Part shown: piece after piece, positions 1-12,677 of the stretch
Position numbering within the stretch: the stretch's first letter is position 1
How the letters are laid out: every line of letters starts with the position of its first letter
Assembly (NCBI RefSeq): GCF_024832785.1
Contig: NZ_CP116615.1
Coordinates: 1,178,001-1,242,000, forward strand
DNA length: 64,000 nt
Direction of reading: 5' to 3'
Source: Fontisphaera persica
Lineage (GTDB): Bacteria; Verrucomicrobiota; Verrucomicrobiia; Limisphaerales; Fontisphaeraceae
The notes under the pieces: generated by a model
Seen by the model: only the letters and a program-made list of their open reading frames with translations
The model's database searches: none
What the model was told of the DNA's origin: nothing
Made by a program: the position numbers and the translations under genes

Positions 1-1071
1 GAAGCGCCGGTCAATGCACTGCGAACACACTCCGCAATGCGTGTGCGTGTTGCTCGTGTCCCACGTGTGCGCGCAGCTTCTCGAATACGCAATCATCGGC
101 CCGCAGTCCGCCTGGACGATCTTCTTCACCACATCGCCCTTGGTGGTCCACACGAAAGGGTTCTCCACTGCGAACGGCTCGTTGGCCACCAGCGTCAGCA
201 GCTTTTGCAGGCCATCCAGCACCTTGGGGTGTGTCGTTCGCGTGGCGCGTCCGCCCACCACCTGGGCGCACACCGGCAGGTTCAGGCTCACGATTCCGTT
301 TTCATAGAATCGCAGCCGTTTCACCCGCACCATCATGGCCACGGTCGCCCCCAGTGCCGCAAACAGGAACGACCGCGCCCGCTGGGTGTATTCCTTGCCC
401 AGGGTCGAGTCCTTGCTGATGCGCACGTGCATGTGGCTGGGCACATTCGCCCCGGCCTTCGCCGCCAGCAGCCGTTGCAGTTCCTGGTGCTTCAGGCTGA
501 ATTTCGGCGTGGACCGGTGGTTCACCAACAGCACCCGGTGCTTGTTGGTGCAGATTTCCTCAATCGCCCCGGCCAGCGAATCCAGCCCGCCGGAGAACAT
601 CATCACCTGCTCCATCTGCCCGACCGGCCCAGCGTCTCTGTCGAAGTCGAACAACTGTTGCACTTGCGGCGCGTCCTTCGCCGGGTAGAAGCTGAAGTCG
701 TAGAAATCATCCGACAGAAATTCCAGCGTCTCGACCAGCAGCTTCTTCGCCCCTGCCGAGTTCCACAGCTCGGGAACCCGGACCGGAACATGGAAATGAA
801 ATCGCCGCTTCCAGTGCCCGCCAAAGCTGTCCACTTCATGCTGCCCCCGGATCGCGGTCTGGTCGCAGCAATAGACGTAGGCCGCCATTTCGAGGAGGTC
901 TTGAAACTGCGGCGGTATGTCTCGCCACAGCTTTTCATTCAAGTCCTCGATCCTGAGGTTGATATTCTTGCCCCCATGCGTGTCCCACAGGTTCAGGGCC
1001 AGCGTCGGCGTCGCCGCGCTCATTCCGCTCGCCCTGGCTCCCCCGCACAAGATGTGTTTCTCAGTTTCCAT
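1..1071 (-). CDS. QueC-like PP-loop ATPase (QatC/Cap9-type), 3' end cut by window edge
   Basis: This reading frame is open from the ATG at 1071 to the left edge (357 codons, no stop). It has an N-terminal region of about 155 residues, then the PP-loop motif SGGLDS at about residues 160-165. Near the edge is a four-cysteine cluster, one Cys in YSRSC followed by CGVCSQC, which matches the zinc site of QueC (7-cyano-7-deazaguanine synthase). QueC itself is about 230 residues; the long N-terminal extension is more like the QueC-like enzymes of antiphage systems (QatC, type IV CBASS Cap9). The start overlaps the end of the upstream gene by 11 bp (shared ATGGAAACTGA), implying coupled translation. 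No queD, queE or queF is visible, so a tRNA queuosine role is less likely. The ATPase fold is clear; the defence role is inferred. Confidence 0.8.
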   Translation of the reverse strand, partial: METEKHILCGGARASGMSAATPTLALNLWDTHGGKNINLRIEDLNEKLWRDIPPQFQDLLEMAAYVYCCDQTAIRGQHEVDSFGGHWKRRFHFHVPVRVPELWNSAGAKKLLVETLEFLSDDFYDFSFYPAKDAPQVQQLFDFDRDAGPVGQMEQVMMFSGGLDSLAGAIEEICTNKHRVLLVNHRSTPKFSLKHQELQRLLAAKAGANVPSHMHVRISKDSTLGKEYTQRARSFLFAALGATVAMMVRVKRLRFYENGIVSLNLPVCAQVVGGRATRTTHPKVLDGLQKLLTLVANEPFAVENPFVWTTKGDVVKKIVQADCGPMIAYSRSCAHTWDTSNTHTHCGVCSQCIDRRF

Positions 1072-1849
1072 CGCTCTTTGCCCTCATCGCCAATTCGGCC
1101 TTCATTTTCTTCATCGCCACCCAGCCAAACCCTTCGGCGGACTCGCGGGAAATCCTTCCGCCCTCCTCGTAGCGATGCTTCGAGAACCAGTCTGCCCCGA
1201 ACTCTTGCACGATCACGGAAGCCTCTTCGCAGTGCGTTCGCATGGCCTCTTCAAATTGCGCCATCTGGTTCATGGTGGCGAACCGCTGTCCTTCCCCGAC
1301 CTGAGTCCCAAGCGTCTTGGTCAGGAAAAACCCCAACGCTTCGTTGGTCAGCTTGGCCATGAAGTTCCGCGCCAGGTCGCCAAACTCCTTCTTCTTTCCC
1401 AGGTCTCGGAGCGCCCCTGCCACGTCTTCCCGTGTCGGCGTGAAAAGCCCGTGCAGTCTTTCCTGTAGATGGCTGGTGATGGCGCTCACGAGCGCTTTGC
1501 CCGCGATCTCGCCGAAGGTTTGCCCGTCTCTTGTGGCTCTGACCCGCTGGTCCAGCGCCTCGCCCACCGCCAGCGCCACTTCCACCACGGATGTGCTTTC
1601 CGGAATCGCTATCCCCGCCGCCGCCAGTTGCGCCGTCGGGTCTGCCTTGCCGCCTGCCAGCCCCATTTCCACCAGCAGGTTTACCGCCTCGCGGAACCCG
1701 GCGTCCTTTTGCACCAGGGAGAACGCTTTTTCTGCCGCCTTCAGCGTGGCTTGGGCCACTTCTCCCACGTCCGCCCCGTCCGCGACCAGCCGAACGACCT
1801 CTTGCCACTTCCGGGTGGCTGGCAGTGTTCCTATTCGACTATGCCCCAT
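1061..1849 (-). CDS. QatB-like partner protein of the QueC-like enzyme
   Basis: A 262-residue, largely alpha-helical, soluble protein starting MGHSRIGTLPATRKW, with no signal peptide or membrane segment. The start at 1849 was chosen because the residues further upstream look unrelated and the MG-S-R-x-GTLP-x-T-x-x-W pattern reads as a true N-terminus; no clear ribosome binding site is present. Middle and C-terminal parts contain ALVSAITSHLQERL and EFGADWFSKHRYEEGG. The Gly directly after Met and the position before a QueC-like gene recall QatB of the Qat system. From memory, QueC-like enzymes in type IV CBASS attach a deazaguanine to a protein N-terminus, so Gly2 here could be an acceptor; that is inference. 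It is probably co-transcribed with, and coupled to, the QueC-like gene. Confidence 0.6.
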   Translation of the reverse strand: MGHSRIGTLPATRKWQEVVRLVADGADVGEVAQATLKAAEKAFSLVQKDAGFREAVNLLVEMGLAGGKADPTAQLAAAGIAIPESTSVVEVALAVGEALDQRVRATRDGQTFGEIAGKALVSAITSHLQERLHGLFTPTREDVAGALRDLGKKKEFGDLARNFMAKLTNEALGFFLTKTLGTQVGEGQRFATMNQMAQFEEAMRTHCEEASVIVQEFGADWFSKHRYEEGGRISRESAEGFGWVAMKKMKAELAMRAKSDGN

Positions 1850-2164: not shown

Positions 2165-2740
2165 TTAGAGCCACCCATCGAGCCGCTCCCGCAGAAACTG
2201 CCGCGCAGCTCCAAGCTCGGACTCGAGGGCCCTCGGATCATTCTGCAACACGGAAGCCGCTTCTGCCACAGTCATTTCTTCCCATTCGCACAGGACAATG
2301 GCTTCATGCATACCCTCGGGCAGCGCTTCCACCGCTGCACGCACCGCCTCCCCGCGCCCGCAGGCGCGATCCAAAGTGACGGCGCCGGTCGGCAAGGTGT
2401 GCCCCAACCCTTCACCCTTGCTATGGGATTCTTCGCTCAGCAACACGTTCGGTTGGCAGGCACGTGCACGTCGTTGCTGCCGGGCCAGGTTCACCGCGAT
2501 GGTGAAAAGCCAGGTTCTGAACTGCTCTTTCGGAGCGAAGCTGGCGCGGCCGCGATAAACACGCGCAAAAGTCTCCTCCGCAAGATCGTTTGCCGCCCTC
2601 TCGTCGCCGAGCATCCCGCATAGGAGCCGAAACACCGCCGGAGCATGCCGATCCATCACGCCATTGAGCCCAGCCCGGTTCCCCTTCACCAGCCGGGCCA
2701 TGTCAGCGCGGTCCTGAACCTCCATGTCAGAAACGTTCAT
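2165..2740 (-). CDS. ECF-family RNA polymerase sigma factor, last gene of the metal operon
   Basis: A 191-residue sigma-70 family (ECF) protein. Region 2 is recognisable in DRHAPAVFRLLCGMLGDE through AEETFARVYRG and FRTWLFTIAVNLARQQRR. Region 4 begins at ALPEGMHEAIVLCEWEEMT. The helix-turn-helix of region 4 is unusual: where ECF proteins normally have EIA-x-x-(L/M)G-x-x-x-GTVKSRL, this one reads EAASVLQNDPRALESEL, so its promoter recognition may be divergent or lost. The start is the ATG at 2740, only 5 nt after the ATPase stop, so the gene belongs to the same transcript as the P-type ATPase. No anti-sigma gene is adjacent. A plausible role is metal-responsive control of the operon, but this is inferred from position only. 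Confidence 0.85.
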   Translation of the reverse strand: MNVSDMEVQDRADMARLVKGNRAGLNGVMDRHAPAVFRLLCGMLGDERAANDLAEETFARVYRGRASFAPKEQFRTWLFTIAVNLARQQRRARACQPNVLLSEESHSKGEGLGHTLPTGAVTLDRACGRGEAVRAAVEALPEGMHEAIVLCEWEEMTVAEAASVLQNDPRALESELGAARQFLRERLDGWL

Positions 2741-2745
2741 GTTAT

Positions 2746-4995
2746 TCAAAGATGAGGGTCTTCCCCACTCACATTCGCCGGCCCGCTGTTGGCTCGCAGC
2801 AGCCTCAGCGCGTTGGCAATGACCACCAGCGTTGCTCCCGTGTCCGCCAGGATGGCCAGCCACAAGCTCGTATGGCCGGTCAATGCCAGCACCAGGAAAA
2901 TGGCTTTCACTCCGAGCGCGAAGCCGATGTTTGCCTGAATCACCCGCACCGTCCGGCGGCCCAGCCGGATCGCCTCCGCCACCTGGCTCAAGTCATCCTG
3001 CATCAGCGCCATGTCCGCCGTCTCAATCGCGGTATCCGTGCCCGCCGCGCCCATCGCAATGCCAACGCTGGCGGCAGCCATCGCCGGCGCGTCGTTCACC
3101 CCATCGCCAATCATGCCCACGTATCGGTGTTGCGCCAACAGCACTTGGACGCGGGAGATCTTCTGGTCCGGCAAGAGGTCGCCGTGTGCCTCATCAATGC
3201 CGGCTTGTCGCGCGATGGCGTCCACCGTGCGCTGGTTGTCGCCGCTGAGCATGACCACCTTCTGCACCCCGGCGGCGTGAAGCGCCTGGATGGCAGAGGC
3301 GGCGTTGGGGCGTATCGTGTCACCCACCGCCAGGATGCCGAGCACTTCGCCGGGGCAGTCCGCGTGCGGCTTGTGCCCGACCACCACCACCGACTGCGCG
3401 TCAGCTTCGATTTCCGCCAGCTTCTGTTCCACAGCCTCCGAACACACCGCCAGTTCGTGCGTGAACCGATGGTTGCCCACGAAGTAGTGATGCCCCTCCA
3501 ATTCCGCTTCCGCCCCGCGCCCGGTCTTTCCCTGGTAGTTCTCGCCGCGTGGAGCCTCGATGCCCTTCTGGCGCGCGTAGTCCACCACCGCTTGCGCCAG
3601 CGGGTGCGTCGAGTGGATGTCAATGGCGGCGGCGATGCGGACCAATTCCGCTTCCGGCCTGCCGTTCATCGGACTTACTTTCGTCACTCGCGGGCGGCCT
3701 TCCGTGATGGTCCCCGTCTTGTCCACGGCCAGCGCCCGGAGCTTGCCGATGGCTTCCAGGAGCGCCCCGCCCTTGATAAGCACTCCTCGCCGCGCCAGCG
3801 CCGTCAGACCGGAGACAATGGCAACGGGTGTCGCGATGACCAGCGCACAAGGGCACGCGATCACCAGCAGGACCAAGGCGCGATACGTCCAAACCGCCCA
3901 TGTCCCGCCGAAGAGCAGGGGTGGCACCAGCAAGACCAGCAGCGCCAGCAGCATCACCGCCGGGGTGTAATACCTGGCAAACACGTCCACGAACCGCTGC
4001 GACGGCGCTTTCTGCGACTGCGCCTCTTCGACCAGGTGGATGATCTTGGCCAGCGTGGTATCGGTGCTGAGCTTCGTCACCCGCACTTCGAGCGACCCTT
4101 CGCCGTTGATCGTCCCGGCGAAGACGGTATCCCCGACTTTCTTCTCCACCGGCATGGATTCACCCGTGATGGGCGCTTGGTTTATCGCTGAGGCCCCCGC
4201 GATGACTTCGCCATCTAACGGAACCCGCGAACCGGACTTCACCGCCACCAGGTCGCCTACCTTGACTTCTCCCACCGGGACTTCCTTAAAACTGTCGCCC
4301 TGCTTGAGCCACGCCGTTTCCGGCGAGAGTTGCATGAGTGACTGAATCGCCCGGCGGGCGCGCGCCACGCTGAACGCCTCCAAGACTTCCGCCACGGCGA
4401 AGAGAAACGTCACCGCCGCCCCTTCCGACCATTCGCCGATGGCCACTGCGCCCACCACGGCGACGGTCATCAGCAGGTTCATGTCGGGCGAGAACCGCCG
4501 CGCCGCCGCCACGGCTTTCGGGAATATGAACCACCCCCCGGCAATGATGGCGATGCCAAACGCCCCCAGAGGAAGGGCTGGCGGCCCCAGCCTGCTCCAT
4601 TGCAGCACCAATCCCAGCCCGGTGAAGGCGCCGGACAAGCCCACCGCAATCAACCGGGACCGTTGCGCGTCCGCAGGCCGGCTGCTCCCGCCGGACGCAA
4701 TCCCCGACGCCTTCAACCCGGCCCTCGCAATCGCCTCGATAAGCTGCCCCTCGCTGACACTCGCTTCGTGAGCGACCGTGACCGTGCCGCCCATCAGGTT
4801 CGCCCGCACTTCTCGAACTCCTGCCAACGGCTTCAACACGCGCTCGATGGCCGCCACTTCATCCGCGCAGTCCATGCCGGTCACGCGCAGTGTGGTCTCC
4901 CTATCACTGCCCGGCCGAGGACGCCCGGAAGGCCGGTTTGAATCACCCGGCGTTCCGCTCGGCCCATGCTCACAGTTCGGGCAGCAGTCGCTCAT
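2746..4995 (-). CDS. cadA: Heavy-metal translocating P-type ATPase (Zn/Cd/Pb type)
   Basis: A 749-residue P1B ATPase that would export divalent soft metals from the cytoplasm. A short Cys-rich N-terminus (SDCCPNCEHG) precedes one HMA-like domain containing GMDCADEV, where the second cysteine of the usual GMDCxxC is missing. Then come membrane helices, the actuator motif TGES, the transport motif CPC in ACPCALVIATP, the phosphorylation site DKTGTITEG, the HP motif STHPLA, and the hinge GDGVNDAPA. CPC plus these signatures fits the CadA/ZntA (Zn2+/Cd2+/Pb2+) group; the exact metal is not proven. ATG at 4995 shares an ATGA overlap with the stop of the small membrane gene upstream, and the ECF sigma gene follows after 5 nt. 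An alternative start further upstream would only add a residue stretch unlike the family. Confidence 0.93.
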   Translation of the reverse strand: MSDCCPNCEHGPSGTPGDSNRPSGRPRPGSDRETTLRVTGMDCADEVAAIERVLKPLAGVREVRANLMGGTVTVAHEASVSEGQLIEAIARAGLKASGIASGGSSRPADAQRSRLIAVGLSGAFTGLGLVLQWSRLGPPALPLGAFGIAIIAGGWFIFPKAVAAARRFSPDMNLLMTVAVVGAVAIGEWSEGAAVTFLFAVAEVLEAFSVARARRAIQSLMQLSPETAWLKQGDSFKEVPVGEVKVGDLVAVKSGSRVPLDGEVIAGASAINQAPITGESMPVEKKVGDTVFAGTINGEGSLEVRVTKLSTDTTLAKIIHLVEEAQSQKAPSQRFVDVFARYYTPAVMLLALLVLLVPPLLFGGTWAVWTYRALVLLVIACPCALVIATPVAIVSGLTALARRGVLIKGGALLEAIGKLRALAVDKTGTITEGRPRVTKVSPMNGRPEAELVRIAAAIDIHSTHPLAQAVVDYARQKGIEAPRGENYQGKTGRGAEAELEGHHYFVGNHRFTHELAVCSEAVEQKLAEIEADAQSVVVVGHKPHADCPGEVLGILAVGDTIRPNAASAIQALHAAGVQKVVMLSGDNQRTVDAIARQAGIDEAHGDLLPDQKISRVQVLLAQHRYVGMIGDGVNDAPAMAAASVGIAMGAAGTDTAIETADMALMQDDLSQVAEAIRLGRRTVRVIQANIGFALGVKAIFLVLALTGHTSLWLAILADTGATLVVIANALRLLRANSGPANVSGEDPHL

Positions 4996-5243
4996 GGCTT
5001 TGCTTCCGTTCTCACGCTTCCATCCGGCTGCACACCGGAGCGGATATGGTTGGTCCGGCTCTCGCTCCGCTGGTGGCGGAGGTGCCGTTGATGCCGTTGC
5101 CACCCGATGAAAAACATGTCGGCCACCACCGCCCCAACCATGAGCAGAGCGATCCCTACGATCATCCAGACGCTTTTCCGGCGCTCTATGCGCTCGCGTG
5201 CCGCCTTGCGCGCCGCCACTTCAGGTGCTTTGGCCTTGCTCAT
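4992..5243 (-). CDS. Small single-pass membrane protein in the metal operon
   Basis: An 83-residue protein: a basic Ala/Arg/Lys-rich N-terminal stretch (residues 1-23), one hydrophobic segment at about residues 25-46 (WMIVGIALLMVGAVVADMFF), and a polar, His/Arg-rich tail (GWQRHQRHLRHQRSES). No known family recognised. The charge distribution predicts the basic N-terminus inside and the His-rich tail outside, which might bind metal, but that is inference. The start at 5243 overlaps the end of the CBM48 gene by 23 bp, and the stop overlaps the ATPase start (ATGA), so all three are likely co-translated. I chose ATG 5243 because it leaves a normal short leader before the membrane segment. Confidence 0.6.
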   Translation of the reverse strand: MSKAKAPEVAARKAARERIERRKSVWMIVGIALLMVGAVVADMFFIGWQRHQRHLRHQRSESRTNHIRSGVQPDGSVRTEAKP

Positions 5244-5538
5244 GTTGGGCCGGCACTTCCAGCACCGAGTTGAAGCCGCCGTAAACATTGGGGGTCTGTT
5301 CCGCCGCCGCCGGGTCCGACCGCCATTCCCCATCCACCACCAGGCAGTATTCGTAACGGCCCGGCGGCAGGGACAACGCTTTCACCCAGCGGCCCTCGCC
5401 CAGCGCGAGCATAGGCGTGGCGGTGGGGTTCCAGTCGTTGAATGTTCCCCCGATGAAGATGGCTTGCGCCTGATCATCATGGAACTCGATGCGGGAGCAC
5501 GGCCGTTTCACCTGTAATGTCTTCGTTTTTCTTCTCAT
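5221..5538 (-). CDS. Stand-alone AMPK/CBM48-type glycogen-binding-like domain protein
   Basis: 105 residues that are essentially one early-set (E-set) domain of the isoamylase-N/CBM48/AMPK-beta type. The hallmarks are IFIGGTFNDWNP, then ALGEGRWVKALSLPPGRYEY and VVDGEWRSDP, and the ending NVYGGFNSVLEV. Such domains bind alpha-glucans or mediate protein contacts; no catalytic domain is attached and there is no signal peptide. Its place between a PII-like gene and a metal ATPase gene is odd and gives no carbohydrate context. It overlaps the next gene by 23 bp, so it is a genuine operon member. A regulatory or scaffolding role in the metal system would be a guess. Confidence 0.8.
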   Translation of the reverse strand: MRRKTKTLQVKRPCSRIEFHDDQAQAIFIGGTFNDWNPTATPMLALGEGRWVKALSLPPGRYEYCLVVDGEWRSDPAAAEQTPNVYGGFNSVLEVPAQHEQGQST

Positions 5539-5779
5539 GGTTGGTCCATTTTTTGCCGGTTACATGTCCCCCAACACCCGCCGCGACTTCGGTTGCTCCC
5601 GGAGCGGCCGGAAATGGGCGGTTGGGGTGCTGGGGAAAGCGTCCGGGCAGCGGTCGGGTTCGAGATGAGGGCAATGACAACGCAAAAAACTGAATTGTCG
5701 TCGAACTCAATCGGAATCGCCCAGCGAGGCGGCTCGTGGGCCGCCTCCCTCACCGCCCGCTCATGTGACTTGATTCCCT

Positions 5780-6088
5780 TCACTGATGCTTGTCCTTCTC
5801 ACCCGTCCGAATCTTGACCGTCTGCTCGACAGGAATGACGACAATACGTCCATCCCCGGCCAGGCCGGTGTGCGCCGCTTTCTGGATGGCTTGCACTACC
5901 GGTTCCACCAACCCATCGGGCACCATGATTTCCAGTTTGGTCTTCACCACCTGGTCGAACGTGCCTTGCTCAGCGGATAATCCGTTGGCCGTGGAAACAG
6001 TCATGGCCGGCAGGTCTTTGATTTGACGCAGGGCCTGGACGACCTCTTCCAGGCGCGAGGGCTTGATGATGGCTTTGATTTCTTTCAT
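5780..6088 (-). CDS. PII-like signalling protein of the metal-efflux operon
   Basis: A 102-residue PII-family protein. It starts MKEIKAIIKPSRLEEVVQAL, has the C-terminal signature TGLAGDGRIVVIPVEQTVKI, and ends RTGEKDKHQ. In the T-loop region (TANGLSAEQGTFDQVVKTK) there is no tyrosine at the place where GlnB/GlnK are uridylylated, so GlnD control is unlikely. A distinct PII-like group has been described next to RND heavy-metal pump genes, and the setting 31 bp behind czcA matches it. ATG 6088 gives the conserved N-terminus. It could sense metal, nucleotide or 2-oxoglutarate and tune the pump; which one cannot be told from sequence. Confidence 0.88.
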   Translation of the reverse strand: MKEIKAIIKPSRLEEVVQALRQIKDLPAMTVSTANGLSAEQGTFDQVVKTKLEIMVPDGLVEPVVQAIQKAAHTGLAGDGRIVVIPVEQTVKIRTGEKDKHQ

Positions 6089-6119
6089 GGCATTTCTTTC
6101 GTTGAATATTCCCCTCGGG

Positions 6120-9100
6120 TCAGACCTCAACTTCCACTCCCTTCTTGCCCTTGAACATGCTGTACAGCGCCGGCAGCACCAGCAGCGTCAGCAGCGTGTT
6201 GGTGAAGATCCCCCCGATGACCACCGTCGCCAGCGGTCGTTGCACTTCCCCGCCGACGCCCACGTTCACCGCCATCGGGATGAAACCCACTGCCGCCACC
6301 AGCGCCGTCATCAGCACGGGCCGCAATCGCGCCAGACACCCCTCGCGCACCGCTTGTTCCGCCGTCGCCCCCGCTTCCAGCTTCTGCTTGATGAATGTCA
6401 CCAGCACCAGCCCGTTTAGAATCGCCACCCCGCTCAGCGCAATGAAGCCGATTCCCGAACTCACCGTGAAGGGCATATCCCGCACCCAGAGCGCCAGCAC
6501 CCCGCCCACCGCGCCCAGCGGAATCCCCGTGGCCACGATCAGCACATCCCGCACCGATTTCAGGCTGAAGAACAGCAGCACAAAGATGAGCGCCAGCGCC
6601 ATCGGCACCACAAACATCAGCTTCCGGTTCGCCCGCTCCATGTTCTCGAACTGCCCGCCCCATTCGATGGTGTAGCCTTCGGGCAACTTCACTTGCGCGC
6701 CAATTTTCGCCTTCGCCTCTGCCACGAAGCTCTTCACGTCCCGTCCCCGCACGTTGCACTGCACCGTGATCCGGCGTCGGCCCCACTCCCGATTGATGGT
6801 GGACGGCCCTTCCATCTCCGTGATCTTCGCCACCTGGTTCAGCGGCAGCACCGGCCCCGCCGCCGTGGGGATGAGCGTCGTGGCCAGCGCGTCCGGGTCC
6901 GTGCGCTGCTTGTCCGGCAACCGCACCACCAGCGGGAAGCGCCGCTGCCCTTCGCGCACGTCGCCCACGCGGCGCGAGCCAACCGCCTCCACCACGTTCA
7001 GCACGTTGCGCGTCGGCACGCCGTAGCGCGCGATGGCTTGCGCATCCACGCGCACTTGCAGAAAGGTCTGCCCGGTCAACTGCTCGACCGAGGCCTCGCT
7101 CGCACCCCGAATCCCAGCCAGCACGGATTGCACCTCGCCGCCCAACCGCCGCAATTCCTCCAGATCATCACCATAAACCTTGATCCCAATGTCGCCCCGG
7201 ATGCCGGCAATCAGTTCGTTCAGCCGCATCTCGATGGGCTGGCTGAAGGCTGGCTTCAATCCCGGCACTTGGTTCAACACGTCGCGCATCTTCTCGGTCA
7301 ACTCCGCTTGCGTGCGGGCTTTCTTCCACTCGTCTCGCGGCTTGAGCGCCAGGAAGAAGTCCGCCAACTCGACTCCCATCGGGTCGGTCGCCACTTCCGC
7401 CGTGCCCAGCCGTGTCCAGATGTGTTCAATCTCGTCCGGGAACTCCGCCATCAGCCGCCGCTCAATCATGTCGTTTTGCGCCACCGACTCATCCACCGAA
7501 ATCCCCGCCAGCCGCACACTGGTCCCCACAATCGCTCCTTCACCCAGTTTGGGCAGGAACTCCCCGCCCATTTGCGTGGCCAGGAACGCGCCGCCGGCCG
7601 CAATGGCTACCGCCCCCGCCAGCACCACGCCGCGAAACCGCAGCGCCAGCTCCAGCACGGGCGCATACAATCGCCGCGCCGCCCGCACCAACCAGGGTTC
7701 CGTCTCCTTCATCTGCCGCGGCAGCAGCAGGCTCGCCAGCACCGGCATCAGCATCAGCGACAGCACCAGCGAACCCAGCAGCGCGAAAATCATAGTCAGC
7801 GCCATCGGCTTGAACAGTTTCCCTTCGATCCCTTCCAACGTGAGAATCGGCAGGAACACAATCAGGATGATGCCCACGCCGAACGCCACCGGACGCGCCA
7901 CTTCCAGCGGCGCGCTGCGCAGCACTTCCTCCCGTTCATTCTTCGTCAGCGCCCGCCCCAACTCGTGCTGGCGCATGGCCATCCGCCGCATCGCGTTTTC
8001 CACCATCACCACCGCCCCATCCACGATGAGGCCGAAGTCCACCGCCCCGAGGCTCAAGAGGCTGGCCGCAATGCCCGCCTGCAACATGAAGTTGCCCGCA
8101 AAGAGCATCGACAGCGGAATCGCCACCGCCACAATCAAGCCCGCCCGCAGGTTGCCCAGAAACGCGAACAGGATGGCGATGACTAGCAGCGCCCCAGCCA
8201 GCAGGTTGTGTTCGACCGTGCGAATCACGTTGTCCACCAGTTCCGTCCGGTCATAGAGCACTTCCAGCTTAATGTCCGGCGGCAGGAACTTCTGCACTTC
8301 CGCGAGCTTGGCCTTGAGCGCGTGCGTTACCACCGCGCTGTTCTCGCCCATCAGCATAAAGCCCAGTCCCAGCACCGCTTCCCCCCGGCCATCGGCCGTC
8401 ACCGCGCCCCGGCGGATCTCGTGGTCCTCCTTCACCGTCGCGACGTCCCGCACCCGCACCGGCGTCCCGTCGTGGCTCGTGATGACAATGTTGGCGATTT
8501 CCTGAACGTTCGTGGTCAGGCCCACGCCATGCACGAGCAAGGACTCGCCGCTCCGCACAATCTGCCCGCCCCCCACGTTCTGGTTGTTCGCCTGCAACGC
8601 CTCCACCAGTTCCTCAAACGTCAGGCGGTACTTGATGAGCCGGTCCGTTTCCACCACCACATGGAACTGCTTTTCAAAACCGCCCCAGGTGTTCACTTCC
8701 GCCACGCCGCGCACCTTGCGCAATTCCGGCTTCACCACCCAGTCTTGCAGCACCCGCAATTCGGTCAGTGTCCGGTTCGTGTCCGTGGACCGCACCACGT
8801 AATGGAACACCTCGCCCAGCCCGGTGGCAATCGGCCCAAGCTGCGGGCGCTCCAATCCTTCCGGCAGCTCGACCGTTTGCAGCCGCTCCATGATCAGTTG
8901 CCGCGCCTTGAAAATGTTGATGCTGTCGTCGAAGGTCGCCACTACCTGCGACAGCCCAAACTTCGAGATGGACCGCACGTTCTGCAGGCCCGGCAGCCCG
9001 CTGATGGCCAATTCCACGGGGATGGTGATTTGCGCCTCGGTCTCCTGCGGATTCAGCGCCGCCGCCGTGGTGTTGATTTGCACCTGCACCGGCGTGGTGT

Positions 9101-9221
9101 CCGGGAAGGCGTCAATCGGCAGCACGCTCAGGGTCCGCGCGCCGATCACGACCAGTACTCCCGCCAGGACGCACACCAGCAGGCGGTTCCTTAGGGAAAA
9201 GTTGATGATCCAGTTCAGCAT
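6120..9221 (-). CDS. czcA: Heavy-metal efflux RND pump, inner-membrane subunit (CzcA family)
   Basis: A 1033-residue HME-RND transporter of the usual length, which uses the proton gradient to drive metal ions through a tripartite complex across the envelope. The N-terminal helix (LVCVLAGVLVVIGARTLSVLPIDAFPD) leads into periplasmic porter domains and twelve membrane helices. The ion-relay motif in TM4 reads DFGLIVDGAVVMVEN at about residues 395-410. By the usual HME scheme DFG-x3-DGA-x3-VEN is the Zn/Co/Cd subgroup (HME1), so Zn2+, Co2+ or Cd2+ are the likely substrates rather than Cu+/Ag+. The start is 8 nt past the czcB stop. Partners are czcB and czcC upstream. Confidence 0.95.
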   Translation of the reverse strand: MLNWIINFSLRNRLLVCVLAGVLVVIGARTLSVLPIDAFPDTTPVQVQINTTAAALNPQETEAQITIPVELAISGLPGLQNVRSISKFGLSQVVATFDDSINIFKARQLIMERLQTVELPEGLERPQLGPIATGLGEVFHYVVRSTDTNRTLTELRVLQDWVVKPELRKVRGVAEVNTWGGFEKQFHVVVETDRLIKYRLTFEELVEALQANNQNVGGGQIVRSGESLLVHGVGLTTNVQEIANIVITSHDGTPVRVRDVATVKEDHEIRRGAVTADGRGEAVLGLGFMLMGENSAVVTHALKAKLAEVQKFLPPDIKLEVLYDRTELVDNVIRTVEHNLLAGALLVIAILFAFLGNLRAGLIVAVAIPLSMLFAGNFMLQAGIAASLLSLGAVDFGLIVDGAVVMVENAMRRMAMRQHELGRALTKNEREEVLRSAPLEVARPVAFGVGIILIVFLPILTLEGIEGKLFKPMALTMIFALLGSLVLSLMLMPVLASLLLPRQMKETEPWLVRAARRLYAPVLELALRFRGVVLAGAVAIAAGGAFLATQMGGEFLPKLGEGAIVGTSVRLAGISVDESVAQNDMIERRLMAEFPDEIEHIWTRLGTAEVATDPMGVELADFFLALKPRDEWKKARTQAELTEKMRDVLNQVPGLKPAFSQPIEMRLNELIAGIRGDIGIKVYGDDLEELRRLGGEVQSVLAGIRGASEASVEQLTGQTFLQVRVDAQAIARYGVPTRNVLNVVEAVGSRRVGDVREGQRRFPLVVRLPDKQRTDPDALATTLIPTAAGPVLPLNQVAKITEMEGPSTINREWGRRRITVQCNVRGRDVKSFVAEAKAKIGAQVKLPEGYTIEWGGQFENMERANRKLMFVVPMALALIFVLLFFSLKSVRDVLIVATGIPLGAVGGVLALWVRDMPFTVSSGIGFIALSGVAILNGLVLVTFIKQKLEAGATAEQAVREGCLARLRPVLMTALVAAVGFIPMAVNVGVGGEVQRPLATVVIGGIFTNTLLTLLVLPALYSMFKGKKGVEVEV

Positions 9222-9229
9222 AAGTCTCC

Positions 9230-10783
9230 TCAGTCATCCGCGCAGCCTGCGCCCAGCCGCGACATCAGCATGGCCGACTTCAAGGCAAAGGCCCGGGTCA
9301 CCGCGATTTGCTCCTCGGGCTTCAGGCCCGCCAGCACTTCCAGCCGCCCGTTGTACTTCGCGCCCAGCGCCACCGCCCGCGCGTCGAACAGGTCTTCCGC
9401 CAGCTTCACAAACACGAACGGCCTGCCCTCCACGTGCTGAATGGCCGACGGCGGCACCAGCATCGCCCCTTCCGTCTTCCGCGTCAGAATCCGTGCCGTG
9501 GCAAACATCTTGTCCTTGAGCAGGCAATCCGGATTGGCGAACTCCGCCCGCGCCCGCGCCATGCGCGTGCGCTCGTCCACTGCGGGGCTGACCCACGTCA
9601 GCTTGCCGGTGAACACCTTTCCCGGCAGCGAATCCACCCGCAGTTCGACCGCCTGCCCTGCTTTCACCCGGCCCAAGGTCCCTTCCGGCACTTGCAGCAT
9701 GGCCCACACCGTCGCATGGTCCACCAGCGTGAACAGTGGCTTGCCCACCTCCACCAATGCGCCCCGCACCGCCATCCGCTCCGAGATTTCACCGGCGAAC
9801 GGCGCGCGGACTTCCATCAAAACCTGCTCCTGCGGCTTGTGGCCCATCTCGTCAATCTGCTCTTCTGTGAAGCCTAGCGTCCGCAGTTGCTGGCACGCCG
9901 CCCGATGCGTGGCTTCCGCCTCGTCCAGTGCGGCCTGTGAAGTCACCCGGTCCGCCCTCAGCTTCCGTTCCCGGTCCAGCGTCTGGTGCGACAACACCGC
10001 CTTGGCCACCGCTTCGGCAATGGAGGCGGACCAAATCTTGGCCACCGTCTGCTTCTCCTCCACCTTGGTGCCCAGGTCCGCATCCACCGTTTGGATGATG
10101 CCGCTGACCGGCGCGGCAATCTGCGCCAGCTTGTTCTGGTTGAAGCTCACTTCCGCCACGCATTCAATCCCGTCGGCGATGGCTCCCCTTTCCGGCGCGG
10201 ACGTTCGCACGCCCACGATCGCCGTCGAGTTCGTCGAGGGCAGCCTCACCTTCAGGCTCTCGCCCGGCTTCAGCTTGGCGGCGGCGTCTGGCCGGCACAC
10301 CGCGCATTCCGCTTCCGGCACCCCATGCTCGGCGCACATCAGCACCGCCCCGGACGCCGCTGCCGGCTTGCCCTTGCCCTTCAATTCCGGGTGGCAGAGG
10401 GAGCATTCATCCTCGTAAAGCGAATGTTCCTTGCACCACAGCCGGTTCTTGTCCTGAAGCTCCGGATGGCACTCGAAACACCGGTCCTCGTAACGCTTGT
10501 GTTCCTCGCACCAGAGTCGGCCTTTCTCGCGCAGGCTCGCGTCGCAGATGAAACACAGTTCCTTGGGTGCCTGGTGCGCGGCGCACTTTGCACCGCTGAG
10601 CGGGACTTGAGCTGTTGCCCCATCAGCCCCCTGCGGTGCGGCTACGGCCTTGGCGTGCTTATGCCCGGCATGACCGTGGCCATCGTCTTCGCCCGCGGCT
10701 TCCTGTTTCTTGCAGCCGGCGAGCAACGCCAGGGCTGCGATGCTGGTGATTACGGCAAATTTGAGATTCATCATGTATTTCAT
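9230..10783 (-). CDS. czcB: RND periplasmic adaptor (CzcB family) with N-terminal Cys/His metal-binding repeats
   Basis: A 517-residue membrane-fusion lipoprotein (lipobox LAGC) linking the CzcA pump to the CzcC channel. A His-rich stretch (DDGHGHAGHKHAK) is followed by four copies of C-x2-H-x6-C-x2-C (CAAHQAPKELCFIC, CEEHKRYEDRCFEC, CKEHSLYEDECSLC, CAEHGVPEAECAVC). After that come the adaptor core, with the barrel-sandwich region AQIAAPVSGIIQTVDADLGT, a helical hairpin, and AGQAVELRVDSLPGKVFTG, then the membrane-proximal domain. Typical CzcB proteins lack this four-repeat front end. The same module occurs as a free lipoprotein in the preceding gene. Met codons at 10783, 10774 and 10771 are all possible starts; none has a clear ribosome binding site. 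The repeats probably capture metal and hand it to the pump. Confidence 0.93.
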   Translation of the reverse strand: MKYMMNLKFAVITSIAALALLAGCKKQEAAGEDDGHGHAGHKHAKAVAAPQGADGATAQVPLSGAKCAAHQAPKELCFICDASLREKGRLWCEEHKRYEDRCFECHPELQDKNRLWCKEHSLYEDECSLCHPELKGKGKPAAASGAVLMCAEHGVPEAECAVCRPDAAAKLKPGESLKVRLPSTNSTAIVGVRTSAPERGAIADGIECVAEVSFNQNKLAQIAAPVSGIIQTVDADLGTKVEEKQTVAKIWSASIAEAVAKAVLSHQTLDRERKLRADRVTSQAALDEAEATHRAACQQLRTLGFTEEQIDEMGHKPQEQVLMEVRAPFAGEISERMAVRGALVEVGKPLFTLVDHATVWAMLQVPEGTLGRVKAGQAVELRVDSLPGKVFTGKLTWVSPAVDERTRMARARAEFANPDCLLKDKMFATARILTRKTEGAMLVPPSAIQHVEGRPFVFVKLAEDLFDARAVALGAKYNGRLEVLAGLKPEEQIAVTRAFALKSAMLMSRLGAGCADD

Positions 10784-10817
10784 GGGATGTTCCGTTTCCG
10801 TAGAGGTTCTTCCCTGC

Positions 10818-11243
10818 TCAAGCGCCCTTCTTCTTCACCTCGGGATGGCAGAGAAAACATTCGTCTTCATAGAGCGAATGCTCCTTGCACCACAGCCGAT
10901 TCTTGTCCTGTGCCTCTGGATGGCAAATCCAGCAGCGATCTTCGTAGCGGTCGTGCTCCTTGCACCAGAGGCGGCCCTTTTCGCGCAGGCTGGCATCGCA
11001 CATGAAGCACAGTTCCTTGGGCGCATTGTGCTTGGCGCACTTGGCGCCGCTGAGTGGTGTCTGCGCGATCGCAGCAGCGGGCCCCTTGGGAGTTGCTTCA
11101 GCCTTGGCCTGTTCTTGCCCGGTATGGTCGTGGCCATCGTTTTCGCTGTGGCTTTCCTGCTTCTTGCAGCCCGCAAACACCGCCAGAGCGGCGACGACCG
11201 CCAGGGTCGCACTTTTCAATGTCGTTTGAGTCTTCATAGTCAT
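10818..11243 (-). CDS. Cys/His-rich periplasmic lipoprotein, free copy of the CzcB N-terminal module
   Basis: A 141-residue lipoprotein with signal peptide and a cysteine after VFAG at residue 26, then a His/Asp-rich linker (ENDGHDHTGQEQ) and three repeats of C-x2-H-x6-C-x2-C at residues 69-82, 94-107 and 119-132. The repeat region is almost residue-for-residue the front end of CzcB encoded just downstream (shared GAKCA, LREKGRLWC, KNRLWCKEHSLYEDEC). One gene therefore probably arose by partial duplication of the other. I know no named family for it; a periplasmic metal sponge or chaperone for the Czc pump is the simplest reading. It lies 4 nt behind the czcC stop and 34 nt before czcB. Start 11243 or the Met two codons later (11237) are both possible. 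Confidence 0.85.
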   Translation of the reverse strand: MTMKTQTTLKSATLAVVAALAVFAGCKKQESHSENDGHDHTGQEQAKAEATPKGPAAAIAQTPLSGAKCAKHNAPKELCFMCDASLREKGRLWCKEHDRYEDRCWICHPEAQDKNRLWCKEHSLYEDECFLCHPEVKKKGA

Positions 11244-11247
11244 AGTC

Positions 11248-12546
11248 TTACTTGGTTGTTAAATGTTGGTTTGCTTGCGGCCTCAGCAGTGCTTCCAATT
11301 CCGCTTGGGCCACGTTCAATTCGAGCAGTTTTTGTTGGTAGGCCAGGCGCGCTTCGGCGGTTGTCCGCTGCGTGTCCACCAGGTCAATGAAACCGAACTT
11401 GCCTTGCTCGAATCCCGTCTGCACGAGGCGGAGGGCCTCATCCGCCTTCGGCAGAATCTTCTCCCGGTAGCGGGCTACTTGTTCGGCCGCCGTGCGGTAG
11501 CGCTTCTGCGCGTTGGCCCACTCCCGCTGCAACTGCTGTTGCACCCCGTGCAGTTCCGCTTCTGCCACGCTCACATTCGCCCGCGCCTCTTGCTGTTTGC
11601 CCTTGCCCCGGTCAATCAGCGGTAGCGGCAATGAGAATCCCAGTTGAATAATGGATTGGTCCGTCTCCCCAATCCGCCCGCCCGCCACCCCCACTTTCAC
11701 GTCGGGATACGGCTCCAGCCGTGCCCGCCGATACGACAACTCCGCTCGGTCCAGGTTCGCTTGCGCCGCCGCGGCGCTCGGATGCCGCGCCAGCCAGCCA
11801 TCCCCGTCTGCTCCCGTCAGCCCGGCGTCCGGGGCTTCCGCCAGCGCCCCCGAAAGCGCGGCGTCCTTCAGGTCCGGCCGGCCCAGCAGCGTGGCGAACA
11901 CCTGCCGCGCCGTGGCCAGCTCGCGCTGGAACCCGTTCAACTCCGTCCGCGCCTGCTCCAATTGCACTTCCGCCCGCAACTGTTCCTGATACGCCGTCGC
12001 CCCGGCGTCCACCCGCTTCCGCGCCGTGGCCGCCGATGATTCCGCCACCGCCACCAGTTGCGTGGACACCTCGACCAGCCGCTCCGACGCCAGCACCCGG
12101 AAGAACCCTGCCTTCACGTCCCGGACGATCTCCGTCCGGCGCACCGCCAGTTCCGCTTCCGACAGCTTCACCCCCGCGCCGCCGATTTGCTTATCCAGCG
12201 ACTTCTTTCCCGGATACGGCAGCGTTTGCGCGATTCCAATGGTCTGCTTCGCGTCCGAGAACCCCCGGCCGTTGCTCACCGGCCAGTCTTCCGCACTCAG
12301 TTCCAACTCGGGATTGGTCCACTTCTTCGCCTGGTAGGCTCGCCCGGACGCCGCGTCCACCCGCGCGCCAGACGCGCGCAACTCCGGGTTGCTCGCCAGC
12401 GCCAGCCGCACCGCATCGTCCAGTGTAAGGGCATTCGTGTTCACCATCTCCGGCCCCTGGGCAGCCAATCCCAGGCGCGCGCCCCCGGCGACCAGCACCG
12501 CCAGGGCAGACCACCGACACCATCTCAAAATCAATTTTCTCTTCAT
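11248..12546 (-). CDS. czcC: Outer-membrane efflux channel (CzcC / TolC family)
   Basis: A 432-residue outer-membrane factor that completes the CzcCBA export complex. A signal peptide (VLVAGGARLGLAA region) is followed by the two-fold OEP repeat; LTLDDAVRLALASNPELRASG is the typical beginning, and the second repeat includes DRAELSYRRARLEPYPDVKVG. Long heptad-rich helices (ARANVSVAEAELHGVQQQLQ) form the periplasmic tunnel. ATG 12546 gives a normal Lys/Arg-rich signal start (MKRKLILRW); in-frame codons upstream would add a non-signal stretch. Gene order czcC, lipoprotein, czcB, czcA on one strand fits a single operon. Confidence 0.92.
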   Translation of the reverse strand: MKRKLILRWCRWSALAVLVAGGARLGLAAQGPEMVNTNALTLDDAVRLALASNPELRASGARVDAASGRAYQAKKWTNPELELSAEDWPVSNGRGFSDAKQTIGIAQTLPYPGKKSLDKQIGGAGVKLSEAELAVRRTEIVRDVKAGFFRVLASERLVEVSTQLVAVAESSAATARKRVDAGATAYQEQLRAEVQLEQARTELNGFQRELATARQVFATLLGRPDLKDAALSGALAEAPDAGLTGADGDGWLARHPSAAAAQANLDRAELSYRRARLEPYPDVKVGVAGGRIGETDQSIIQLGFSLPLPLIDRGKGKQQEARANVSVAEAELHGVQQQLQREWANAQKRYRTAAEQVARYREKILPKADEALRLVQTGFEQGKFGFIDLVDTQRTTAEARLAYQQKLLELNVAQAELEALLRPQANQHLTTK

Positions 12547-12677
12547 AACTCGACAAAAACGGACACAACAAACCGACCACAAAGCCGACAGGGGAAAACG
12601 CGGGGTGCAGGCACACCGCAGCCATCAGAAGAATCCCGGACAGGAAGTGTCAGCCAAAACGACCCGAACGGGACCGC

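Follow-up and report, generated by a model that had tools for sequence, protein, structure and literature searches.

The window analysed here, a stretch of 64,000 nucleotides from Fontisphaera persica, begins inside a pair of genes read from the reverse strand. The first, at positions 1 to 1071 (-), is a QatC-like gene whose first 357 of 702 codons lie in the window and whose remainder lies left of the window edge. The host genome is a single contig of 4,726,914 bases and holds the complete open reading frame (ORF), which encodes 702 aa (L002:8963-11071:-, corresponding to G000:C1:1176963-1179071). Immediately upstream, at 1061 to 1849 (-), is the partner gene, a 262-aa ORF that is QatB-like by fold, and the ORF coordinates of the two genes give an overlap of 11 bp (1061 to 1071, -). 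A longer form of the partner starting at a TTG (window position 1954, 297 aa) was ruled out, since relatives align from the ATG at 1849.

Three features stand out in the sequence of the large protein: an SGGLDS pyrophosphate (PP-loop) motif at residues 160-165 (577 to 594, -); a TRTTHP motif at residues 277-282 (226 to 243, -), the position equivalence of which comes from an alignment with QatC 9vlk; and a four-Cys zinc cluster made up of C333, C346, C349, and C352 (16 to 75, -). The partner opens with the N-terminal tail MGHSRIGTLPATRKW (1805 to 1849, -), in which the codon at 1844 to 1846 encodes Gly2, the proposed acceptor. The PP-loop, the zinc cluster, and the 11-bp overlap with a gene for an "MG..." product had all been pointed out in a preliminary description of this DNA, and all are present; the enzyme is also larger than QueC, as stated there, with 702 aa in the complete ORF and a truncated ORF in the window.

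To the left of the pair are small helix-turn-helix (HTH)-like ORFs (named by eye) and then prophage genes, with matches to a RusA-like resolvase, an exonuclease, AAA_25, a terminase large subunit, a portal, a scaffold, and a head-tail adaptor. The pair is at the right edge of this prophage, which bears out the earlier suggestion of a mobile island. The region further left is prophage and contains no queuosine cluster; the host matches to QueD, QueE, and TGT are at 1.393, 2.794, and 4.339 Mb (QueD and QueE are 0.2 and 1.6 Mb from the pair), in agreement with the earlier remark that no queuosine genes are nearby. Directly right of the prophage edge, window positions 2165-12582 hold genes that, by eye, encode an ECF-type sigma factor, a P-type ATPase, a PII-like protein, and CzcA/CzcB/TolC-like metal-efflux components.

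The large protein and its C-terminal domain

The large protein consists of a QatC core (residues ~1-480) and an extra C-terminal domain of ~220 aa that is absent from ordinary QatC. Profile, PDB-sequence, and fold matches all favor placing it with QatC, and a relationship to QatC rather than QueC is supported. The protein matches the QatC profiles of PADLOC (E 9.6e-54) and NCBIfam (E 1.5e-60, with a score of 205.2 bits that is under the 280-bit equivalog cut-off), and PF06508 matches part of it with 31.1 bits, over cut-off. Solved QatC chains were the sole strong matches in a PDB sequence search (9vlk, E 4.1e-28). An AlphaFold2 model made on the relative L042, which is 52% identical to the window's protein (68 sequences; mean pLDDT 85.8), aligns with QatC at a fold Z of 35.4 over 407 residues, within residues 3-484, versus a Z of 13.1 for Cap9 and QueC. 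The features that define QatC membership (i.e., a QueC core with QatC-specific extensions, the SGGxDS motif, and the zinc cysteines) are all present.

The catalytic residues are strongly conserved. In all 68 relatives, S160, G161, G162, D164, and S165 of the SGGLDS motif are invariant, as is each of the four zinc cysteines. D58 is likewise invariant and aligns with residue 63 of QatC 9vlk; D63 of E. coli QatC is named as catalytic in the available portion of PMC13329287. The accessible text of PMC13279940 describes Thr278 and Thr280 of P. aeruginosa QatC as replacing the nucleobase-reading Tyr and Asp of QueC and Cap9, and the TRTTHP motif of the window's protein is the equivalent of these two threonines in the alignment with 9vlk. 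The T277 column contains T in 55 and S in 13 of the 68 relatives, the T279 column T in 65 and S in 3, and the window's own protein has Thr at both positions. That is, the Tyr/Asp pair is found in 0 of 68 long QatCs and Thr/Ser in 68 of 68, as in the QatC described in that text. Sets A4 and A5 both exclude L006, L007, the fusion L100, and L203; A5 additionally omits L202, the protein encoded at the window edge itself, and three short ORFs (L069, L092, and L094).

The C-terminal domain is common to nearly all long QatCs and is variable in kind. The core end was placed in 160 proteins, the window's own included (exceptions were L079, L101, L170, and the Delftia control), and 155 of them have at least 60 residues past the core. 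Shorter extensions were scored for L042, an artefact of the cut given that its model does contain the extra domain, for L092, which is a short ORF, and for L059, L085, and L108. The commonest type (104 proteins, ~225 aa) has no Pfam family over cut-off, and whole-model structure searches returned rows filled by matches to the QatC core; going by the predicted order of strands and helices, this type may be a winged helix. The second type (26 proteins) has weak HTH matches; the third (9 proteins) has a representative that matches Trans_reg_C with 36.6 bits, over cut-off; several further types are rare. Profile comparison among the types linked just two small ones. On a Leptospira noguchii plasmid (L203:6114-8758), QatC carries a fused restriction-nuclease domain of the DpnII-MboI type (42.1 bits, over cut-off) and is accompanied by an MGH partner.

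The main C-terminal type, there ~200 aa long, also ends three ORFs that have no QueC part, behind other N-terminal parts (L036:6816-8186, L037:7313-8734, and L038:6208-7548). The islands that carry these three ORFs also hold restriction-type or phage-type genes, with the neighbors named by eye.

The partner and its N-terminal tail

Searches of Pfam, PADLOC, NCBIfam, and PHROGs gave no family match under E 0.01 for the 262-aa partner; an AbiEi match at E 0.013 and scattered weak profile matches across 73 partner members were taken as uninformative. The PADLOC QatB models recognized 0 of these 73 members and the NCBIfam QatB model recognized 1 (E 0.0035), whereas two canonical QatBs used as a control do match the PADLOC models. 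Thus, the profile searches that the preliminary description had called for support its assignment for the large protein, which matches QatC, and miss the partner, which escapes the QatB sequence models. A comparison of the partner profile with seven QatBs by hhalign gave a P value of 0.002, yet a weak probability of 13.6%.

The AlphaFold2 model of the partner (73 sequences; mean pLDDT 86.2) is all helical apart from isolated bridges, with a pLDDT below 50 for residues 1-10. QatB is the top Foldseek row for this model, with weak statistics (E 0.34; prob 0.82). In VIA-align, the two QatB rows have Z scores of 14.5 and 14.2 over 204-206 residues at 8-10% identity; the better, 9y01_A, covers 204 of 215 residues with an rmsd of 3.5, and the next unrelated row has a Z of 6.7. 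Since helical bundles can reach a Z of ~14 without kinship, it is the distance from the next row, together with the position of the gene, that makes the case for QatB. Based on the predicted fold, we take the partner to be a diverged QatB.

The preliminary description had asked whether Gly2 is conserved among upstream partners. Gly2 is present in 94 of 94 partner representatives, a count that excludes 11 loci without a partner N terminus and incomplete ones, is thinned at 90% identity, and takes as the start whichever start codon lies closest to position 1 of the profile, a choice that leans towards the motif because the profile was built from MGH seeds. Other tail residues follow at 92 (His3), 88 (L9), 84 (G7), 83 (P10), and 78 (W15), so W15 and P10 are not universal. 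Across the 260-column alignment, M1, G2, W221, and K248 alone are invariant, and residues 2-15 are the most conserved of five segments (mean entropy, 1.34 bits versus 2.04-2.26 bits). The best-conserved part of the partner is therefore its disordered tail, which is the pattern expected of an N-terminal substrate. In QatB, G2D or loss of residues 16-22 abolishes defense, according to the accessible text of PMC13279940. By analogy, Gly2 of the partner is probably tagged chemically by the QatC-like enzyme, and an ATP-driven modification at this residue is supported by homology. Gly2 had previously been put forward as the acceptor of a deazaguanine: conservation and homology back the residue and its modification, whereas the deazaguanine is unsupported.

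Recurrence of the pair and comparison with Qat systems

Is the pair a chance arrangement in one genome? Of 387 genomes of the host phylum, 15 have a match to the 702-aa query; in 13 of these the match falls in the QatC part, and 5 of the 13 have the long form with an adjoining partner (one partner being cut by a contig end). Searching with a profile built from those five long QatCs retrieved 161 relatives from GTDB genomes plus 87 from IMG/VR, and 80 of each were kept; adding L202, which was found via its partner, and the Leptospira plasmid locus L203 gives 162 loci. By NCBI name, the 80 GTDB loci comprise 33 from Pseudomonadota, 18 from Planctomycetota, 16 from Verrucomicrobiota, 5 from Thermodesulfobacteriota, 6 in single further phyla, and 2 unassigned. 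In 153 of the 162 loci the partner and QatC are same-strand neighbors, and in one (L100:4964-7756) they are fused; there, partner and QatC form a single 930-residue ORF beginning MGTTQIPTLPKTREW. Seven of the eight loci without a partner start at a contig end; the other, L058, has no partner despite 3.8 kb of upstream sequence and is a true exception. The same gene pair in 154 of 162 related loci, together with the QatC profile E values, shows that the pair is not due to chance, and the co-occurrence in other genomes that the preliminary description had set as a test is borne out. With Gly2 conserved and no queuosine cluster to the left, none of the three outcomes named there as refuting was observed.

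The gene overlap also recurs, with 11 bp in 34, 8 bp in 21, 4 bp in 19, and 14 bp in 7 of 90 representative loci. The 36 long QatCs included in a tree cluster together (99/95 support), separately from both canonical and verrucomicrobial short QatCs, although the branch of the Leptospira sequence is long. G208 and G187 have partner fragments with no QatC, and G226 has a second one; these look like remnants, and a match in G013 (E 9.8e-4) looks spurious.

The comparison with QatABCD is instructive in what is kept and what is missing. Kept are the core fold of QatC, N- and C-terminal extensions of the QatC type, the SGGxDS motif, the four zinc cysteines, Thr/Ser in place of Tyr/Asp, a QatB-fold partner directly upstream, and its N-terminal Gly2. 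In contrast, neither QatA, a KAP NTPase that is reported to bind DNA, nor QatD, a TatD nuclease, was found beside long QatC in any of the 162 loci; the flanks are long enough for a proper exclusion in 95 of these loci (in 64 of the 90 representatives). The proteins also differ: eight canonical plasmid QatCs have 446-467 aa, whereas long QatCs mostly have ~600-720 aa with a variable extra domain; the QatB tail has 30-90 residues and begins MGTS in the accessible text of PMC13279940, whereas the partner has a short MGHxRLGxLP tail; and the partner, unlike the QatB of QatABCD, is invisible to the PADLOC QatB models, in a pair often found on prophage-like elements.

How far does the search for QatA and QatD reach? 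All eight plasmid loci that carry canonical qat genes have both, a partly self-matching result given that several of these loci supplied the queries (one QatA is a fragment). In an independent control of eight short-QatC loci of the same phylum, six have both genes, so the search does reach distant copies; L219 and L224 have neither, so such an absence is not peculiar to the long form. These two loci (G142 and G234) may represent another QatA/QatD-free form; in the genome of L219, the gene upstream of the short QatC begins MGTSVNHPSPKTTSW.

The pairing of QatC with a QatB fold and no detected QatA or QatD argues for a two-gene QatBC variant. According to the available portion of PMC13279940, QatBC on its own protects against some phages. 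In the consulted portion of PMC13329287, roughly one in three cluster-2 genes is reported to have qatA and qatD as neighbors, so a QatA/QatD-free form could be present in those data. The filling of the C-terminal slot by DNA-binding or DNA-cutting domains, together with the absence of QatA and QatD, suggests that this domain may stand in for the two as the DNA-facing part of the system.

Proposed role, donor, and rival explanations

Homology, fold, pairing, conserved Gly2 and catalytic residues, and an extra variable domain are seen in the sequences and predicted structures. We posit, with a probability of roughly 60%, that the pair is a prophage-carried two-gene anti-phage module of the QatB-QatC type, in which QatC would join an ATP-activated acid to Gly2. 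In this model, the QatB-like fold of the partner would hold out the disordered N-terminal tail, Met1 would be removed, and Gly2 would then be placed in the QatC active site, where QatC would activate a small carboxylic acid with ATP and join it to the Gly2 amino group. The modified pair would then block infection, perhaps steered to DNA by the extra C-terminal domain, which would replace the absent QatA (a DNA-binding NTPase) and QatD (a nuclease). The N-terminal modification and the defensive role proposed here are modeled on published work with QatBC and Cap9.

What acid might be attached? One alternative to the model above is that the donor is CDG and that a deazaguanine is attached to Gly2, in the way that Cap9 modifies CdnD, and we consider this unlikely. 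Long QatC and Cap9 share the QueC fold and a partner with an exposed Gly2, Cap9 carries out deazaguanine chemistry (PMC11996544 and PMC13279940, in the portions available), and the accessible part of PMC13329287 favors the same reaction for QatC. However, the deazaguanine-reading Tyr/Asp is replaced by Thr/Ser in 68 of 68 long QatCs, a difference from Cap9 that extends to the partner: CdnD is a CD-NTase, the partner here is QatB-like, and no CD-NTase profile is among the families matched by the 73 partner members at E 0.01.

The queuosine genes of the hosts bear on the same question. Canonical QueC (over 150 bits) is present in 34 of 50 host genomes, which is consistent with a CDG donor. Of the 16 QueC-less hosts, 8 have QueD and a full-length QueE (the window's host included), 2 have QueD only, and 6 (G206, G226, G425, G428, G430, and G431) have no canonical QueC, no QueD match, and no full-length QueE match. 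Five of these six have TGT, and two are, by title, isolate genomes (L114, Seohaeicola; L117, Aquamicrobium). G430 has a full-length QueC paralogue at 79 bits, G226 has partial QueE-model matches of up to 51 bits, and G390, among the eight with QueD and QueE, has a QueC paralogue at 83 bits. Four of the 34 QueC-positive genomes (G394, G403, G421, and G426) also lack QueD and a full-length QueE; detection thus has blind spots, and the absence of QueD and QueE is suggestive rather than proof. The search with three additional QueE models covered 14 of the 50 host genomes. Taken together, the altered substrate residues and the hosts without QueC, QueD, and QueE argue against CDG as a general donor, and the deazaguanine named in the preliminary description as the attached group is doubtful.

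The window's own host could nonetheless make CDG: it has QueD (128.6 bits), QueE (257.6 bits), and TGT, and it has no canonical QueC, the sole PF06508 match in the genome being the QatC-like gene itself. QueD and QueE without canonical QueC also occur in seven other Verrucomicrobiota hosts (one with the 83-bit paralogue). Such hosts may either have replaced QueC or put CDG to another use.

A second alternative is that the pair serves the phage, in superinfection control, lysogeny regulation, or anti-defense; the C-terminal DNA-binding domain would then act as a regulator, and the N-terminal chemistry would be shared or incidental to that role. The pair is often carried by prophage-like elements, in many phyla: it adjoins prophage genes in the window, 87 relatives are in IMG/VR contigs, and the QatC family is classed as a moron in PHROGs. 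By design, half of the 90 representative loci come from the virus collection. A serine recombinase family is present in 38 of the 90, and all but one of its 63 copies are upstream; helicases (22), AAA_24 proteins (16 and 9), DUF669 (12), and DUF2924 (11) are less frequent. Each family was named from one member, and the helicase, AAA_24, and DUF669 genes are mostly downstream. However, prophages commonly carry defense genes as morons, and we count this against a phage-serving role. In the window's genome the pair is at the edge of the element, its homologue is an anti-phage system, and superinfection exclusion is itself a form of defense. We regard a phage-serving role as rather improbable.

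It is very improbable that the gene encodes a dedicated QueC, or some other enzyme of small-molecule chemistry, and has the partner next to it by chance: PF06508 scores over cut-off in a host with QueD, QueE, and no other PF06508 match, and long QatC shares the Rossmann core, PP-loop, and zinc site of QueC, but it is three times the size, has lost the nucleobase-reading residues, lies in a prophage and not beside queD/queE, and in 154 of 162 loci has a partner of QatB fold, and E. coli QatC does not replace QueC (PMC13329287, in the available portion).

Returning to the two-gene anti-phage module, we tentatively, and at less than even odds, extend it to a widespread, self-sufficient QatBC family that would use a non-deazaguanine Gly2 tag and a plug-in C-terminal DNA-binding or nuclease domain replacing QatA and QatD. 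If this is true, it would mean a modular, prophage-borne immunity resting on an unknown N-terminal protein modification. The available portion of PMC13279940 states that the group attached by QatC to QatB and the way in which phages are stopped are open and that the reaction has not been reconstituted. The long-QatC family offers simpler material for QatC chemistry, with two genes, a short tail, and a natural single-chain fusion (L100); some hosts seem unable to make CDG and would need another donor, and swaps of the C-terminal domain point at the output of the system. The family also widens the range of Qat-like pairs, adding prophage-like elements from many phyla, and its partners escape the QatB models now in use. 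Prophage, fusion, helix-turn-helix, and MGH find no mention in the available text of PMC13279940; in the consulted portion of PMC13329287, helix-turn-helix appears solely for another cluster and prophage is absent. The literature consulted on QueC-like proteins in phage defense, QatB/prophage, and QatC/winged helix showed no description of the two-gene long-QatC form, and an earlier mention is possible.

Other pairings were seen on plasmids. A third QatC pairing is found in Agrobacterium (L210:4333-6287) and Methylocystis (L213:3303-5254), with a partner of ~190 aa that begins MSDGPHxSLPxR and so has Ser2 rather than Gly2, if the annotated start is right. The gene order there is partner, QatC, and an XRE gene, that of L210 having an M78-peptidase domain; another acceptor residue and a protease output are possibly at play. 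On a Mesorhizobium plasmid (L211:3201-5206), a distant QatC has a 229-aa partner beginning MGSVTLRGG, near CHAT and ASCH genes.
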